A stretch of 49,210 bases of DNA from Kofleriaceae bacterium (GTDB lineage Bacteria > Myxococcota_A > Polyangia > Haliangiales > Haliangiaceae): contig JABFXX010000144.1 of assembly GCA_013368795.1 (NCBI GenBank), forward strand, positions 1-49,210, in the 5' to 3' direction. Below, piece by piece: positions 19,889 to 28,723 of the stretch (positions within the stretch are counted from its first letter, which is position 1; every line of letters starts with the position of its first letter). A program made the translations under genes and the position numbers. The notes below the pieces were generated by a model that was not told the origin of the DNA, did not search any database, and saw only the letters and a program-made list of their open reading frames with translations.

Positions 19889-20911
19889 TCAGCCGTTCTG
19901 CATGTGGCGAATCACCGCATCCGTGAACTGCGCGGTGTTGGCCTTGCCGCCGAGGTCACCCGTGCGGGTCTCGGCGTTCGCGAGCGCGGCCTTGATGCCG
20001 CGGCGCAGGCGCGTCGCGGCGTCGCGCTGCTCGATGTGATCGAGGAGGAGCGCGGCCGACAGCATGAGGCCCGTCGGGTTCGCGATGCCCTTGCCGGCGA
20101 TGTCGGGCGCGGTGCCGTGGACGGCCTCGAACATCGCGACGCCACCATCGCCGATGTTCGCGGCGGGCGCGACACCGAGGCCGCCGACGAGACCGGCGGT
20201 GAGGTCGGACAGGATGTCGCCGAACAGGTTCATCGTGACGATCACATCGAACCGCTCGGGCGCGACGACGAGCTTCATCGCGGTCGCGTCGACGATCATG
20301 TCGTCGAACTGGATCTCGGGATAGCGCTTCGCGATCTCGCGGCCGGTGTCGAGGAACAGGCCGTTGCTCATCTTGAGGATGTTCGCCTTGTGGACGAGCG
20401 TGACCTTCTTGCGGCCCATGCGGCGCGCGTACTCGAACGCGTAGACAATCACGCGCTCGCTGCCGAACTTCGTGATGATCGCGATCGATTCGGCCGCCGT
20501 GCGGCGCGGATCGATGTAGTGCTCGACGCCGGCGTAGAGGTCCTCGGTGTTCTCGCGGACGATGACGAGGTCGACATTCGTGTAGCGCGACGGCACGCCG
20601 GCGAGCGTCTCGACGGGACGGACGTTTGCGTAGAGATCGAAGTGCTGGCGCAGCGTGACGTTGACGGAGCGATAGCCGCCGCCGCTCGGCGTCGCGAGCG
20701 GGCTCTTCAGCGCGAGCTGGTTCTTCTTGATCGAATCGATCGTCGCCTGCGGCAGCGGATCGCGATGCTTCTCGACGGCACCTGCACCGGCGTCGGCCTT
20801 CTCCCACGTGATCTTGCCGCCGGCGGCCTCGATCGCGCGCACGGTGGCCGCAGCGATTTCGGGGCCGATGCCATCTCCTTCGATCAACGTGACAGTACGA
20901 GTCGTGGTCAT
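19889..20911 (-). CDS. Isocitrate dehydrogenase, NAD-type
   Basis: Converts isocitrate to 2-oxoglutarate in the TCA cycle. The ATG at 20911 starts MTTTRTVTLIEGDGIGPEIA, the usual N-terminus; a longer in-frame extension runs antisense across the Rieske gene. 340 residues, the short (IDH3-like) class. Substrate loop: RSVNVTLRQHFDLYANVRPV. Other signatures are IVRENTEDLYAGVEH and NLFGDILSDLTAGLVGG. The cofactor loop is HGTAPDIAGKGIANP; the Asp there is typical of NAD enzymes, where E. coli NADP-Icd has Lys-Tyr. Isopropylmalate dehydrogenase is less likely given the substrate loop. The start overlaps the Rieske stop by 4 bases. Confidence 0.9.
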   Translation of the reverse strand: MTTTRTVTLIEGDGIGPEIAAATVRAIEAAGGKITWEKADAGAGAVEKHRDPLPQATIDSIKKNQLALKSPLATPSGGGYRSVNVTLRQHFDLYANVRPVETLAGVPSRYTNVDLVIVRENTEDLYAGVEHYIDPRRTAAESIAIITKFGSERVIVYAFEYARRMGRKKVTLVHKANILKMSNGLFLDTGREIAKRYPEIQFDDMIVDATAMKLVVAPERFDVIVTMNLFGDILSDLTAGLVGGLGVAPAANIGDGGVAMFEAVHGTAPDIAGKGIANPTGLMLSAALLLDHIEQRDAATRLRRGIKAALANAETRTGDLGGKANTAQFTDAVIRHMQNG

Positions 20912-21240
20912 GAGGGTCCTTGCAGCGTTCTCGGAACGGGGTCGATCTCGATGTGCTCGCCTACCACGCGAACTGCATAGGTGACGAGACAGACATCCGA
21001 TGCTTCGGCGTGGCGTCCCGTCGCAGTCGAGAATCGCCAGCCGTGATTGGGGCAGATGACGTGGCCGCGCGACACGATGCCGTCGGTGAGGTCGCCTCCG
21101 CGATGCACGCACTGACGCTGCATGGCGAAGTAGCGATCACCGTCGAGCCCGAGGACCATCGGAATCCCCGCGACCTCGACGGCGATGACATCACCGGGCC
21201 GGAGGTCTCCGACCTTCGCGACCTGCTTCCACTCGGACAT
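20908..21240 (-). CDS. Rieske [2Fe-2S] ferredoxin
   Basis: 110 residues, a complete stand-alone Rieske domain. Cluster ligands are C44-x-H46 (QCVHRGG) and C63-xx-H66 (CPNHGW), separated by the usual 16 residues. Lacking the cytochrome bc disulfide Cys and any membrane anchor, it looks like a soluble dioxygenase-type or NirD-type ferredoxin. No oxygenase is nearby. It overlaps the isocitrate dehydrogenase start by 4 bases and follows the VOC gene by 2 bases, so the three form one compact minus-strand unit. Confidence 0.93.
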   Translation of the reverse strand: MSEWKQVAKVGDLRPGDVIAVEVAGIPMVLGLDGDRYFAMQRQCVHRGGDLTDGIVSRGHVICPNHGWRFSTATGRHAEASDVCLVTYAVRVVGEHIEIDPVPRTLQGPS

Positions 21241-21659: not shown

Positions 21660-23192
<1,533 letters not shown>

Positions 23193-23196
23193 AGTC

Positions 23197-23233
23197 TGTC
23201 CAGCCGTCTAGACGCTGTCCAGTGGCTTGGACG
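23197..23233 (+). promoter_or_regulatory. Two tandem dyads, putative enhancer (UAS) of the ECF sigma gene
   Basis: Two 18-base imperfect dyads stand 19 bases apart: TGTCCA-GCCGTC-TAGACG at 23197-23214 and TGTCCA-GTGGCT-TGGACG at 23216-23233. Both fit TGTCCA-N6-TGGACA. A weaker copy (GGTCCA-N6-TGAGTC) is at 23167-23184 inside the activator gene, and extra half-sites TGGACA/TGGACG follow at 23240 and 23248. The centres lie about 97 and 116 bases upstream of the predicted sigma-54 start, the classic distance for activator enhancers. Confidence 0.6.
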
Positions 23234-23272
23234 GACGTCTGGACAAATGGACGCCTAACTAGCTGCAATCAC

Positions 23273-23292
23273 TTGTCCGGGTGGCTGGACAA
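23273..23292 (+). promoter_or_regulatory. Promoter-proximal dyad of the same consensus
   Basis: TTGTCCGGGTGGCTGGACAA has perfect 6-base arms and the same N6 core as the two upstream dyads (TGTCCG-N6-TGGACA). Its centre is about 40 bases before the predicted transcript start, abutting the -24 element. That position suits repression or an additional contact rather than enhancer looping. It may also serve the divergent activator gene. Confidence 0.5.
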
Positions 23293-23295
23293 ACA

Positions 23296-23310
23296 TGGCG
23301 TCGCAGTTGC
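23296..23310 (+). promoter_or_regulatory. Sigma-54 promoter of the ECF sigma gene
   Basis: TGGCGTCGCAGTTGC fits TGGC-N7-TTGC exactly, with GG-N10-GC spacing; only the inner -24 positions (GT for AC) depart from consensus. The predicted start near 23322 gives an 18-base leader that contains the Shine-Dalgarno of the ECF gene. Together with the upstream dyads and the divergent activator gene this is a complete sigma-54 arrangement. Confidence 0.6.
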
Positions 23311-23326
23311 GTATCGGATCATGGCG

Positions 23327-23332
23327 AGGAGG
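23327..23332 (+). promoter_or_regulatory. Strong ribosome binding site of the ECF sigma gene
   Basis: AGGAGG stands 7 bases before the ATG at 23340. It is one of the best Shine-Dalgarno matches in the window and fixes the start of the sigma factor. Confidence 0.75.
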
Positions 23333-23339
23333 GTGACCG

Positions 23340-23858
23340 ATGCAGACAGCGCAAGACCTCGACCTGGAACAGACCCGCGCGTACGTGAAGTCGGTCGCGA
23401 TGAAGTACGTGCGCAACGAACAAGATGCGGATGACGTCGCGCAGGACGCGATGCTCTTGGCCCATCGCTATCGCGACTCGTTCCGTGGCGAGTCCCGCTT
23501 TTCGACCTGGCTTTACCGAGTGACCGCGACCGCGGCGCTGATGTTCCTGCGCCGCCAGCGCCGGCTGTCTCGCGAGGTTTCCGCGAGCACGGCGACCGAC
23601 GAGGATGGAACGCCGTGGCTGGAGCGTCAGCCTGCAGCGACCGACACGCGCGCCGAGGTGATGGCTCGCAGCGAGCTCGATGATGTCCGTCAGGCCGTCG
23701 CCGAGCTCGGCGCGAAGTATCCCGCCGTGTTCTGGAAGCGCTACGGCGAGGGCCGCACCGAGACCGAGATCGCGCGCGAGCTCGGCATCTCTGTCGCCGC
23801 CGTGAAGACGCGCGCGTTCCGTGGCCGTCAGGCCGCGCTCCGCGCCGTCGCGCGCTGA
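23340..23858 (+). CDS. ECF-family RNA polymerase sigma factor
   Basis: 172 residues, the two-domain size of ECF sigmas. Region 2 (about 12-75): YVRNEQDADDVAQDAMLLAH, then FRGESRFSTWLYRVTATAAL and FLRRQRR, covering the -10 recognition helix. A 30-residue acidic linker follows. Region 4 (about 118-170): AVAELGAKYPAVFWKRYGEG, TETEIARELGISVAAVKTRA and FRGRQAAL, the -35-binding helix-turn-helix. No anti-sigma gene is adjacent, unlike most ECF loci. This fits control at the level of transcription by the divergent sigma-54 activator. A promoter-like site for an ECF factor occurs just downstream. Confidence 0.95.
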   Translation: MQTAQDLDLEQTRAYVKSVAMKYVRNEQDADDVAQDAMLLAHRYRDSFRGESRFSTWLYRVTATAALMFLRRQRRLSREVSASTATDEDGTPWLERQPAATDTRAEVMARSELDDVRQAVAELGAKYPAVFWKRYGEGRTETEIARELGISVAAVKTRAFRGRQAALRAVAR

Positions 23859-23882
23859 GCGTTTATCGCGTGTCCGCCCGGC

Positions 23883-23906
23883 GAACGCGGGTGTGGGCGT
23901 AGGTCC
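23883..23906 (+). promoter_or_regulatory. Candidate ECF-type promoter
   Basis: GAAC, a 16-base spacer and GTCC resemble the common ECF layout (GGAAC-N15-17-GTC). It lies between the ECF sigma gene and the next gene, about 70 bases before that gene's ATG. A chance match is possible in so GC-rich a background. Confidence 0.3.
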
Positions 23907-23975
23907 ACGGCCGAGGCCAACTGGCCGCATCGCCTGCGCTCTCGGCCTGGCCTGGAGGTCGCAATACCTGCGCTC

Positions 23976-24524
23976 ATGATGCTCGCCATCCTGCCGCTGG
24001 TTGCTGCGTCGCTCGGCTCGCCCGACGACACGGTCGTGACCACGTCGCCGCGCTCGGCGCAGGTCCGGCTTGCCGATCTGCTCGCAGACGCCGACGAGAT
24101 CGACGCAGTTCGCGCGCACCATCAGACATTCACGTTCGCGATCGTCCGCGGCGACGAGCCCTACTCCATCGTCGCATCGACGAATGCCGAGGGTGACGTC
24201 GTCGACGTCGTGCTGCGCGACCGCGTCGCCACCGACCGCGATCTCGGCACGCTCTCGTGGCTGTCGGACACGATGAAGCAGACCATCGCGGTGACGAACC
24301 TCGACGTCGACGAGGACGGCGCGGTCACGCTGACGACCGCCGACGGCCAGCACTACATGGCGATCCCCGGGCGCGGCTCGGGCGGACCGTCGGAGCGCGA
24401 CGAGGACATGGTCCCGCGCCACGGCGGCGACGACGACGAGGACGACCTGCGTGCCGGTACGGATACCAACACCGCCGCCGAGGCGAGGTTCGCGGCGCAG
24501 GTCGCGTCGGACCCACGCGGCTAG
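23976..24524 (+). CDS. Exported acidic protein of unknown function
   Basis: 182 residues. A short hydrophobic N-terminus (MMLAILPLVAASLGS) suggests a signal peptide. The middle (about 30-135) is an alternating alpha/beta domain: VRLADLLADADEIDAVRAHH, FTFAIVRGDEPYSIVAST, GDVVDVVLRDRV, TIAVTNLDVDEDGAVTLTT, DGQHYMAI. The C-terminal 45 residues are strongly acidic and disordered (GGDDDEDD). I recognise no family. It is the first gene after the ECF sigma factor and the obvious candidate target. A second in-frame ATG at 23979 is equally usable. It lacks the zinc or membrane features of an anti-sigma. Confidence 0.7.
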   Translation: MMLAILPLVAASLGSPDDTVVTTSPRSAQVRLADLLADADEIDAVRAHHQTFTFAIVRGDEPYSIVASTNAEGDVVDVVLRDRVATDRDLGTLSWLSDTMKQTIAVTNLDVDEDGAVTLTTADGQHYMAIPGRGSGGPSERDEDMVPRHGGDDDEDDLRAGTDTNTAAEARFAAQVASDPRG

Positions 24525-26786: not shown

Positions 26787-27173
26787 ATGCCTGAAAAGCA
26801 GACGGTCAAGCGTGCGAAGGCAGACCTCCGGCGCGGCAAGAAACCGACGACCGCGGCCGGCGAGTTCGTTCGCGAGGAGATCGAGCACATTCGCCGCGGC
26901 AAGCACGGCGCGCGCTCGACGAAGCAGGCGATCGCGATCGGCCTCTCGAAGGCTCGGCGTTCCGGCGTTCAGCTACCGCCGCGCCGCGGTAAGGGACACG
27001 ATCAGGACGTCCGCGCCCTCGCCAAGGGCCGCCAGCACAAGCGGCCGTCGCGCACGCGGTCGAAGGCGACGGAGCGCGCGCTGAAGCGCGAGCCGCATCG
27101 CGCCGCCTCGAAGTCGGCGCTCTCGAAGCAGGCGAAGTCGTCCGCGCGCCGGCGCAAGCGCTCGCGTCGCTAG
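26787..27173 (+). CDS. Very basic DUF6496-like protein
   Basis: The ATG at 26787 follows GGAGA by a few bases. 128 residues. The first 60 (MPEKQTVKRAKADLRRGKKP, TTAAGEFVREEIEHIRRGKH, STKQAIAIGLSKARRSGV) fit the DUF6496 pattern with its KQAIAIGLSKAR core. The C-terminal half is almost all Lys/Arg/Ser/Ala and ends KRSRR, like a histone-H1-type tail. Nucleic-acid binding is a reasonable inference. The gene shares its TAG with the opposite gene's TAG in the palindrome CTAG, so the two convergent genes overlap by 4 bases. Confidence 0.75.
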   Translation: MPEKQTVKRAKADLRRGKKPTTAAGEFVREEIEHIRRGKHGARSTKQAIAIGLSKARRSGVQLPPRRGKGHDQDVRALAKGRQHKRPSRTRSKATERALKREPHRAASKSALSKQAKSSARRRKRSRR

Positions 27174-28723
27174 GACCGCGATTCGCCGGTGGTGATCGCG
27201 CCTGCGAGCGCGCGCGACAGCGTATCGGGCGAGTACGGCTTCGGGATGAAGCCGCGCGCGCCGGCGTCGAGCAGCGCCTGGACGTCCTCGTTCACGGCGT
27301 AGCCCGACATCAGGAGCACGATCACGTTCGGATCGATCTCGCGCATCGCGGCGAACGTGGCGGCGCCGTTCATGCCCGGCATGATCATGTCGAGGACGAC
27401 GGCGCGGATCATCGCGCGGTGCACGCGGAACAGCCCGACCGCCTCCATGCCGCTGCCCGCTTCGTGCGTCAGGTAGCCGAGGCCGCGCAGCGTCTTGGCG
27501 ACCGCGGCGCGGACGATCGGATCGTCATCGACGACGAGGATCGTGCCCGTCCCCGGCTCGATGGTCACGCCTGAGCCGGGGTTCGGCGCATCGGCTGGCT
27601 GCGTGGCGGCCGGGAAGCTCGCGCGCAGCGTCGCGCCCTCGCCGTCGAGGCCCGTGTCGATCTCGATCGTGCCGCCGTGGCTCTCGACGATACCGAACAC
27701 GGTCGCGAGGCCAAGACCGGTGCCGCGGTTCGCGCCGTGCGTCTTCGTCGTGAAGTACGGCTCGAACACGCGATCGCGGATCTCCGGCGGGATGCCGGGG
27801 CCATCGTCGGACACCTCGAGAATCACCTGCGAGCCCCGCGTTCGGGTGCGCACGCAAACGCGGCCGCCCTTGTCCTTCACCGCGTCGCGCGCGTTGACGA
27901 CGAGGTTCATCACGACCTGTTCGAGCTGCGACGCGTCGCCGACGACCGTCCCCCGCTCGGTTGCCGCGAGGTCGAACTCGATCTCGACGCCGGTCAGCGT
28001 GCGCGTCAGAAGCTCGCGCATCGCACCGATGACCTCGTTGAGCGCGACCGGCATCGCGCGGTGCTTGCCGCGCCGTGCGAACCCGAGCAGCGATCGCGTC
28101 AGTACCGCCGACCGCTCGGTGACATCGTCGATCATCTTCAGCGACGCGAGCTTCTGCTCGTCGGCCTCGGTCGCGGCGAGCTCGGCCGCGAGCAGTTTGA
28201 TGCCAAAGATCAGGTTGTTGAAGTCGTGCGCGATGCCGCCGGCCAGCGTGCCGACCGCCTCGAGCCGCTGGGCGCGCCGCAGTCGCGCGTCCGCCTCCGC
28301 GCTCGCCTGCTCGGCCTCGATCTGCTTCGTGATGTCGAAGAACGCGATCACGACGTGCGTGATCACTCCCGCCTTGTTCATCACCGGCCGTCCGAACGCG
28401 CGGACGTGAACGGTCGTCCTGTCCGGCCGGCGGATCATGATGTCGTCGTTGACGACGACGCGCTTCTCGACGAGCGCACGCACGAACGGCAGCCGGTCTT
28501 CCGGATAAGGTCGACCGTCGCGCGTCAGGATTCCATAGGGCTCGCTGTAGGCGCCGACGTGGACGTCGTCTCGCTGCCCTTGGCCCATGATCTCCGCGAA
28601 CGTGTGGTTCGTGTAGATCTCCTCGCCGTTCGGCGCGCGCGCGACCCAGATGCCGACGGGCAGATCATCCGCGAGGGCGTGGATGATGTCCTGGTCGGAC
28701 GGTACCTCGTCACCTTTTGTCAC
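27170..28723 (-). CDS. PAS-containing hybrid histidine kinase with C-terminal receiver
   Basis: 517 residues with a GTG start. PAS domain (about 10-130) with LADDLPVGIWVARAPNGEEI and a PAC-like ITHVVIAFFDITKQIEAEQA. HisKA region: AQRLEAVGTLAGGIAHDFNN, whose His is the phosphorylation site. HATPase: N-box VVMNLVVNARDAV, G1 VSDDGPGI, F-box PYFTTK and G2 GTGLGLATV. The C-terminal receiver (about 395-510) has ILVVDDDPIV, phospho-Asp VVLDMIMPG and Lys in FIPKPYS. No membrane helix, so it is cytosolic. This GGIAHDFNN subgroup often relays to a separate regulator; the partner is not evident here. Confidence 0.94.
   Translation of the reverse strand: MTKGDEVPSDQDIIHALADDLPVGIWVARAPNGEEIYTNHTFAEIMGQGQRDDVHVGAYSEPYGILTRDGRPYPEDRLPFVRALVEKRVVVNDDIMIRRPDRTTVHVRAFGRPVMNKAGVITHVVIAFFDITKQIEAEQASAEADARLRRAQRLEAVGTLAGGIAHDFNNLIFGIKLLAAELAATEADEQKLASLKMIDDVTERSAVLTRSLLGFARRGKHRAMPVALNEVIGAMRELLTRTLTGVEIEFDLAATERGTVVGDASQLEQVVMNLVVNARDAVKDKGGRVCVRTRTRGSQVILEVSDDGPGIPPEIRDRVFEPYFTTKTHGANRGTGLGLATVFGIVESHGGTIEIDTGLDGEGATLRASFPAATQPADAPNPGSGVTIEPGTGTILVVDDDPIVRAAVAKTLRGLGYLTHEAGSGMEAVGLFRVHRAMIRAVVLDMIMPGMNGAATFAAMREIDPNVIVLLMSGYAVNEDVQALLDAGARGFIPKPYSPDTLSRALAGAITTGESRS

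Follow-up and report, generated by a model that had tools for sequence, protein, structure and literature searches.

The window, the whole 49,210-nucleotide stretch of DNA from a Kofleriaceae bacterium that was analysed here (contig JABFXX010000144.1, positions 1 to 49,210), carries a gene for a sigma-54 activator (bEBP) and a gene for an ECF sigma factor that diverge from a short shared region. This arrangement raises the question of whether the activator governs the transcription of the ECF gene, that is, whether one sigma factor type controls another, a relay seldom described. At a probability of about 90%, we read the 147 bases between the two genes as an enhancer and a promoter that serve a dedicated relay, in which the bEBP would act through sigma-54 on the ECF gene. 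This reading draws on the comparison of sequences between orthologous loci. Below, genomes (G), contigs (C) and loci (L) are given by our own numbers, with G000 for the genome of the window.

The divergent gene pair and its shared region

The bEBP gene (21660–23192, minus strand) was recognized from the ORF listing, Pfam and its orthologs, and encodes 510 amino acids. The protein has a degenerate receiver (Response_reg, 3.5e-8), an AAA+ domain with a GAFTGA loop (Sigma54_activat, PF00158, 1.3e-69) and a Fis-type HTH at the C-terminus (HTH_8, 1.3e-8, residues 460–499). Its start is listed at 23192; as the alignments to most orthologs set in around residue 24, the true start is unsure. The ECF sigma factor gene (23340–23858, plus strand), found in the ORF listing and by Pfam, encodes 172 amino acids with regions 2 and 4 only (Sigma70_r2, 1.7e-15; Sigma70_r4_2, 5.1e-12). 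Among the 25 families listed of the 72 matched in NCBIfam, the general family TIGR02937 was the sole one above its cut-off (88.7 bits, cut-off 42.9). The genome has one rpoN match (PF04552, 7.2e-65) and holds 82 bEBP-like and 44 ECF-like matches. Pfam recognized no anti-sigma domain in the eight neighbouring ORFs of the window, in agreement with the original prediction, which had pointed to the lack of an adjacent anti-sigma gene. Control of the ECF factor at the level of transcription would fit this lack.

The intergenic region spans positions 23193–23339. Direct reading, a pattern scan for TGTCCA-N6-TGGACA and the Pfam matches bore out the divergent gene pair, the three dyads and the weaker copy that the original prediction had described, with no perfect copy of the pattern among them. 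Distal dyad 1 (TGTCCAGCCGTCTAGACG, 23197–23214) has two mismatches, and its left edge lies four bases from the listed start codon of the bEBP gene. Distal dyad 2 (TGTCCAGTGGCTTGGACG, 23216–23233), with one mismatch, starts 19 bases after dyad 1. The promoter-proximal dyad 3 (TGTCCGGGTGGCTGGACA, 23274–23291), also with one mismatch, is placed one helical turn upstream of the -24 box. The weak fourth copy (23228–23245) has three mismatches. Three dyads with at most two mismatches appeared in none of 5000 dinucleotide shuffles of 23193–23339, the mean number of dyads being 0.01.

Between dyads 2 and 3, on the plus strand, alignment and scoring against an IHF consensus delimited an A-rich element (TAACTAGCTGCAATC, 23256–23270), which reads roughly YAA-N4-yTGnAA. 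Downstream of dyad 3 follows the predicted sigma-54 -24/-12 promoter (TGGC-N7-TTGC, of the GG-N10-GC type; 23296–23310, plus strand), seen by direct reading and in the alignment, from which the ECF transcript would start at about 23321–23323. A Shine-Dalgarno sequence, AGGAGG (23327–23332, plus strand), precedes the ATG at 23340 by seven bases and was found in 10 of the 12 aligned loci. Promoter string and AGGAGG were both read where the original prediction had put them.

For the comparison, we searched 56 genomes with the ECF protein and kept, from the resulting graded list, the locus of the window and the 28 best other loci (n = 29), all oriented on the ECF gene. L038 (G029) was excluded, as its ECF match (46%, 1.6e-28) looks paralogous; a pattern scan found there no dyad and no strict sigma-54 site. 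A bEBP ortholog was located upstream and divergent in 26 of the 29 loci, and in the other three the contig stops about 130 (G013), 515 (G027) and 900 (G021) bases upstream. G013 has an 86% bEBP match, ending at the end of a different contig. The bEBP gene adjoins the shared region in the window, in ten further close loci, in G010 and in G035. Of the Sigma54_activat motifs, GAFTGA was present in all 25 ortholog rows and GESGTGKE (Walker A) in 24, the exception being a fragment. Four family genomes have neither partner (G002, G014, G016 and G029; their ECF matches reach 1.6e-28 at best and their bEBP matches 44% at most), two of them from incomplete assemblies (G002, 73%; G014, 59%). No bEBP ortholog was found among the best 80 loci listed from a collection of named genomes, the top segment identity being 48%. 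The ECF tree is weak: good support was found for 7 of its 26 inner branches, and G010 sits on a long one.

Other genes accompany the pair. On the bEBP side, at 19889–21112 (minus strand), there is a gene of the isocitrate/isopropylmalate dehydrogenase family (PF00180), with matches upstream of the bEBP gene in the loci of 14 other genomes; it is not known to be linked to the switch. On the other side, 23976–24524 (plus strand) encodes a 182-amino-acid protein with a signal-peptide-like start, as judged by eye, and no match in Pfam or NCBIfam. This gene sits downstream of the ECF gene in eight close loci, the window included, and an alignment of the eight revealed no conserved ECF-type promoter upstream of it. 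In L060 (G030) and some relatives at the order or class level, the ECF gene is followed by what we take to be a methylmalonyl-CoA mutase-like ORF, directly next to it, and a PlsX-like ORF.

Receivers, kinases and the question of phosphorylation

The original prediction had phosphorylation of the activator switching on the ECF gene. Its transcriptional part, the relay, was supported by the comparison; phosphorylation as the switch was not established. In a conventional two-component switch, a histidine kinase would phosphorylate the receiver Asp of the bEBP, and only then would the ECF promoter be activated. We consider this a serious contender, somewhat short of even odds. It is consistent with the receiver of the window protein, which has one acidic residue of the pair, the Asp, a Ser for the Thr, and the Lys, and with three orthologs (G034, G035 and G031) that keep the acidic pair, Asp, Thr and Lys. 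The remainder of the family argues against it. The phospho-acceptor Asp is replaced by Glu in 6 of the 24 readable ortholog rows (G018, G020, G012, G019, G022 and G025), and the acidic pair is reduced to a single Asp in 21 of the 24, the same three orthologs being the exceptions.

The kinases speak for both sides as well. A REC-histidine kinase of about 390 amino acids is encoded beside the shared region or the ECF gene in 14 related loci, and its H, N and G boxes are kept in all 13 rows that reach them. In 13 of these loci the bEBP match follows the kinase in the same direction, and in the last (G027) the contig ends first. In G024 the kinase comprises a receiver, a HATPase domain and a HisKA match just under the cut-off. 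On the other hand, the receiver Asp of this kinase was found in just 2 of 14 rows (G031 and G034), and the locus of the window has no REC-kinase, the matches listed elsewhere in G000 being at most 36% identical. G012, from the same genus as the window, has one.

A second kinase gene, at 27170–28723 (minus strand), encodes a PAS-histidine kinase-REC hybrid. It has relatives downstream of the ECF gene in four close loci (G013, G005, G007 and G004; 55–66% identity), and is a possible candidate for the partner of the bEBP, which would favour the two-component switch. Judged by these residues, receivers look decayed across the family. Phosphorylation as the switch of the window bEBP is possible, as its Asp, Ser and Lys are kept, but doubtful, given the degenerate receivers of the family and the missing REC-kinase at this locus.

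Spacing of the dyads and the promoter

Sigma-54 sites were scored with simple weights, and each locus was represented by the best-scoring site within at most 280 bases upstream of the ECF gene. In all 29 loci, this site ranked between 1 and 11 among the 10,772–33,966 scored windows of its own locus. The -12 box of G012 deviates, reading TTGG. Tandem distal dyads, called at a fixed score, were both present in 19 of the 29 loci; nine had one of them and one (G021) had none. The original prediction had named loss of the dyads at orthologous loci as evidence against itself, and the dyads turned out to be conserved.

The dyads also keep a rigid distance from the promoter. Offsets are given here as the start of the dyad relative to the first G of the -24 GG. 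Among the 12 close loci, dyads 1 and 2 lie at -100/-81 in ten and at -99/-80 in G006, and dyad 2 of G013 lies at -71. In the aligned sequences of these 12 loci, GTCTAGAC in dyad 1 is invariant. Thirteen of the other 17 loci fall within 2 bases of a -90/-71 frame, for the dyads that they possess. The remaining four are G026 (-101/-82), G010 (-99), G034 (a sole dyad at -59, off register) and the dyad-less G021. The ECF ortholog of G021 (L055) has a good sigma-54-like site, and all bEBP matches of that genome are at most 45% identical; this ECF gene is apparently unhooked from bEBP control. G017, AT-rich and outside these counts, has a 60% bEBP match divergent beside a 40% ECF match. By eye, its intervening DNA contains TGTCTA-N6-TAGACA as a perfect dyad, another dyad whose spacer is N7, and TGGCACG-N4-GTGC.

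The dyads could instead be mainly negative autoregulatory operators of the bEBP gene, with control of the ECF gene incidental or exerted by another activator. In most loci dyad 1, judged by eye, is no more than about 50 bases away from the divergent start codon, and in several a half-site enters that codon (TGGACATG or TAGACATG), either from dyad 1 itself (G010, G027) or as a further half-site (G020, G026). However, the dyads hold their distance, to within one helical turn, from the -24/-12 box of the ECF gene rather than from the divergent start codon, both where the bEBP gene and where the kinase gene is the divergent neighbour. Such a role as the main one is therefore improbable. A reading in which the sigma-54 site matches by chance, an unrecognised promoter serves the ECF gene and the dyads bind an unrelated repressor is very improbable, as the site is kept at fixed spacing beside a sigma-54 activator gene, even though TGGC-N7-TTGC is found five times in the 49-kb window (two on the plus strand, three on the minus strand). 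The string arises in 0.2% of 5000 dinucleotide shuffles of the intergenic region; by itself it would be weak evidence, and its conservation at fixed spacing is what makes the promoter convincing. A sigma-70 scan of 23000–24100 gave no site, and shuffles were also expected to give about none, so that this result is little informative.

In the dedicated relay that we prefer, the divergent bEBP would bind the distal dyads 1 and 2, centred at about -117 and -98 from the predicted transcript start. From there it would contact the sigma-54 RNA polymerase held at the -24/-12 promoter, with the DNA between them looped, perhaps through bending at the A-rich element. The ATPase of the bEBP would open the promoter, leading to production of the ECF factor, which would then act on its own promoters. 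The original prediction had likewise proposed that the bEBP acts on the ECF promoter from tandem dyads, and the conservation of the distances, together with the rpoN match, lends support to this proposal. New relative to that prediction are the A-rich element conserved in place, the REC-kinase of relatives, the single occurrence of the tandem pattern per genome and the one-turn relation of dyad 3 to the -24 box. The activator probably also limits its own expression, because dyad 1 adjoins its start codon.

Dyad 3 follows a geometry of its own, by which the loci other than G021 and G026 were split into a separated and a fused class. The separated class comprises 12 loci, G010 and 11 close ones; ten have TGTY at -23, and 11 have TGGAC at -11. 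Of the 15 loci in the fused class, eight have GTYY at -12, any other offset from -68 to -3 giving at most two. In this class the -24 box itself forms the right half of dyad 3, reading TGGAA in 8 of the 15. Two comparisons between relatives revealed length differences in this part of the region. G013 is set off from G007, G001 and G011 by a gap of exactly 10 bases between dyad 3 and the promoter, and G026 carries there 11 more bases than its relatives G024, G028 and G027. Gaps of 10 and 11 bases mean that the promoter is shifted by one helix turn relative to the whole upstream array, and stays on the same face. Dyad 3, next to the -24 box or fused with it, probably caps the output at high activator levels, as a governor site.

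The A-rich element is conserved in composition and place. Over 28 loci, A was found at -40 and at -39 in 25 each, G at -32 in 21, A at -30 in 21 and A at -29 in 23. With the IHF consensus YAANNNNTTGATW, the best plus-strand match starts at -41 in 20 of the 28 loci and within 1 base of it in 24. The best scores sum to 187, compared with 156 ± 3.8 for base shuffles (largest 172). Single matches are poor (5–8 of 9 positions), with P < 0.05 against shuffles in 7 of the 28 loci only, and raw scores on the minus strand are similar to those on the plus strand. The best IhfA-like match of the genome has 106 bits, under the family cut-off of 120. The element is IHF-like in form and place, and may be an IHF site or a UP-like or other A-rich element.

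Known systems and the reach of the activator

Closest in function is the HrpRS-sigma-54-HrpL system of Pseudomonas syringae, to which the original prediction had compared the locus, and the comparison supports the analogy. Excerpts of its published accounts (PMC5263251, PMC8999054) describe an upstream bEBP site, an IHF site between enhancer and promoter, and an ECF factor (HrpL, ECF32) listed without an anti-sigma factor. The two systems share the upstream bEBP site, the sigma-54 promoter of the ECF gene and the compact divergent intergenic region. The likeness is one of functional layout, the ECF factor studied here being without an ECF32 assignment. HrpR and HrpS form a heterohexamer, whereas the window has a single bEBP with a receiver domain, and many relatives have a REC-kinase. 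Moreover, hrpL is divergent from its target gene hrpJ, and the ECF gene of the window from its own activator. HrpL binds at hrpJ and thereby represses the hrpL promoter, whereas here a third dyad of the activator type is found at the promoter.

Other systems share single traits. As excerpted in PMC8103513, the P2 promoter of rpoE in E. coli depends on RpoN and QseF, so that an NtrC-family response regulator likewise drives an ECF gene through RpoN; P2 differs in being one of six rpoE promoters in that account, in which RpoE is also released from RseA. NtrC at glnAp2 of E. coli, in the part of PMC3870243 that describes it, likewise has two high-affinity distal sites and two low-affinity sites downstream (3 and 4), proposed to be governor sites. 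That system serves a metabolic operon. In the loci studied here, the proximal dyad either merges with the -24 box or keeps one helical turn away from it, and would be a governor by analogy. SigE and SigQ (ECF39) of Streptomyces coelicolor are likewise controlled at transcription, by a two-component system, but the excerpted account names no sigma-54 promoter for them (PMC8999054).

A literature search limited to titles and abstracts returned no description of this locus or, for this group, of any bEBP gene lying divergent to the ECF gene that it controls, an absence that weighs little. In the excerpts cited, HrpL stands out as the main example of an ECF factor that lacks an anti-sigma factor and is controlled through sigma-54. 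The locus described here would be a conserved second design, with a dedicated activator, a REC-kinase in many relatives, and an enhancer of fixed geometry that occurs once per genome. It can serve as a natural test case for helical phasing at sigma-54 promoters, and for the decay of receivers while the output wiring persists.

The tandem-dyad pattern, sought with at most two mismatches in 317 genomes of the class, is nearly unique to this locus. It was found in 25 genomes, 21 of them among the 30 of the window's family, and four outside it (G059, G042, G247 and G248); a reversed control pattern was found in one of the 317. In each of the 21 family genomes it occurs once, always at the ECF locus. 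Nine genomes of the family lack it, among them G013, cut by a contig end, G017 and G022, whose dyads have diverged beyond the pattern, and the four that have neither gene. Single dyads with at most one mismatch are in no clear excess over the reversed control (G000, 13 vs 12; G007, 12 vs 14; G024, 12 vs 11; G004, 12 vs 6), and three of the 13 in G000 belong to the intergenic region itself. The simplest reading of these counts is that the activator would serve mainly the ECF promoter, a few further single-dyad targets being possible.

A more far-reaching version of the relay can be proposed tentatively, and we consider it rather unlikely as a whole. The bEBP, its receiver past classical phosphorylation, would drive a single promoter genome-wide, that of the ECF gene. 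The same protein would throttle this promoter through a third operator, which doubles as the -24 box or lies exactly one helical turn away from it. The result would be a self-limiting pulse generator, tuned in evolution by indels of 10–11 bp.

Elsewhere in G000, two dyads of a similar type were found 33 bases apart (C8:7546–7596), with another bEBP match, at C8:8169, following after about 0.6 kb. These dyads perhaps belong to another activator with a related site. Similar single sites were found at C358:25590 in G000 and at C393:4235 in G004.
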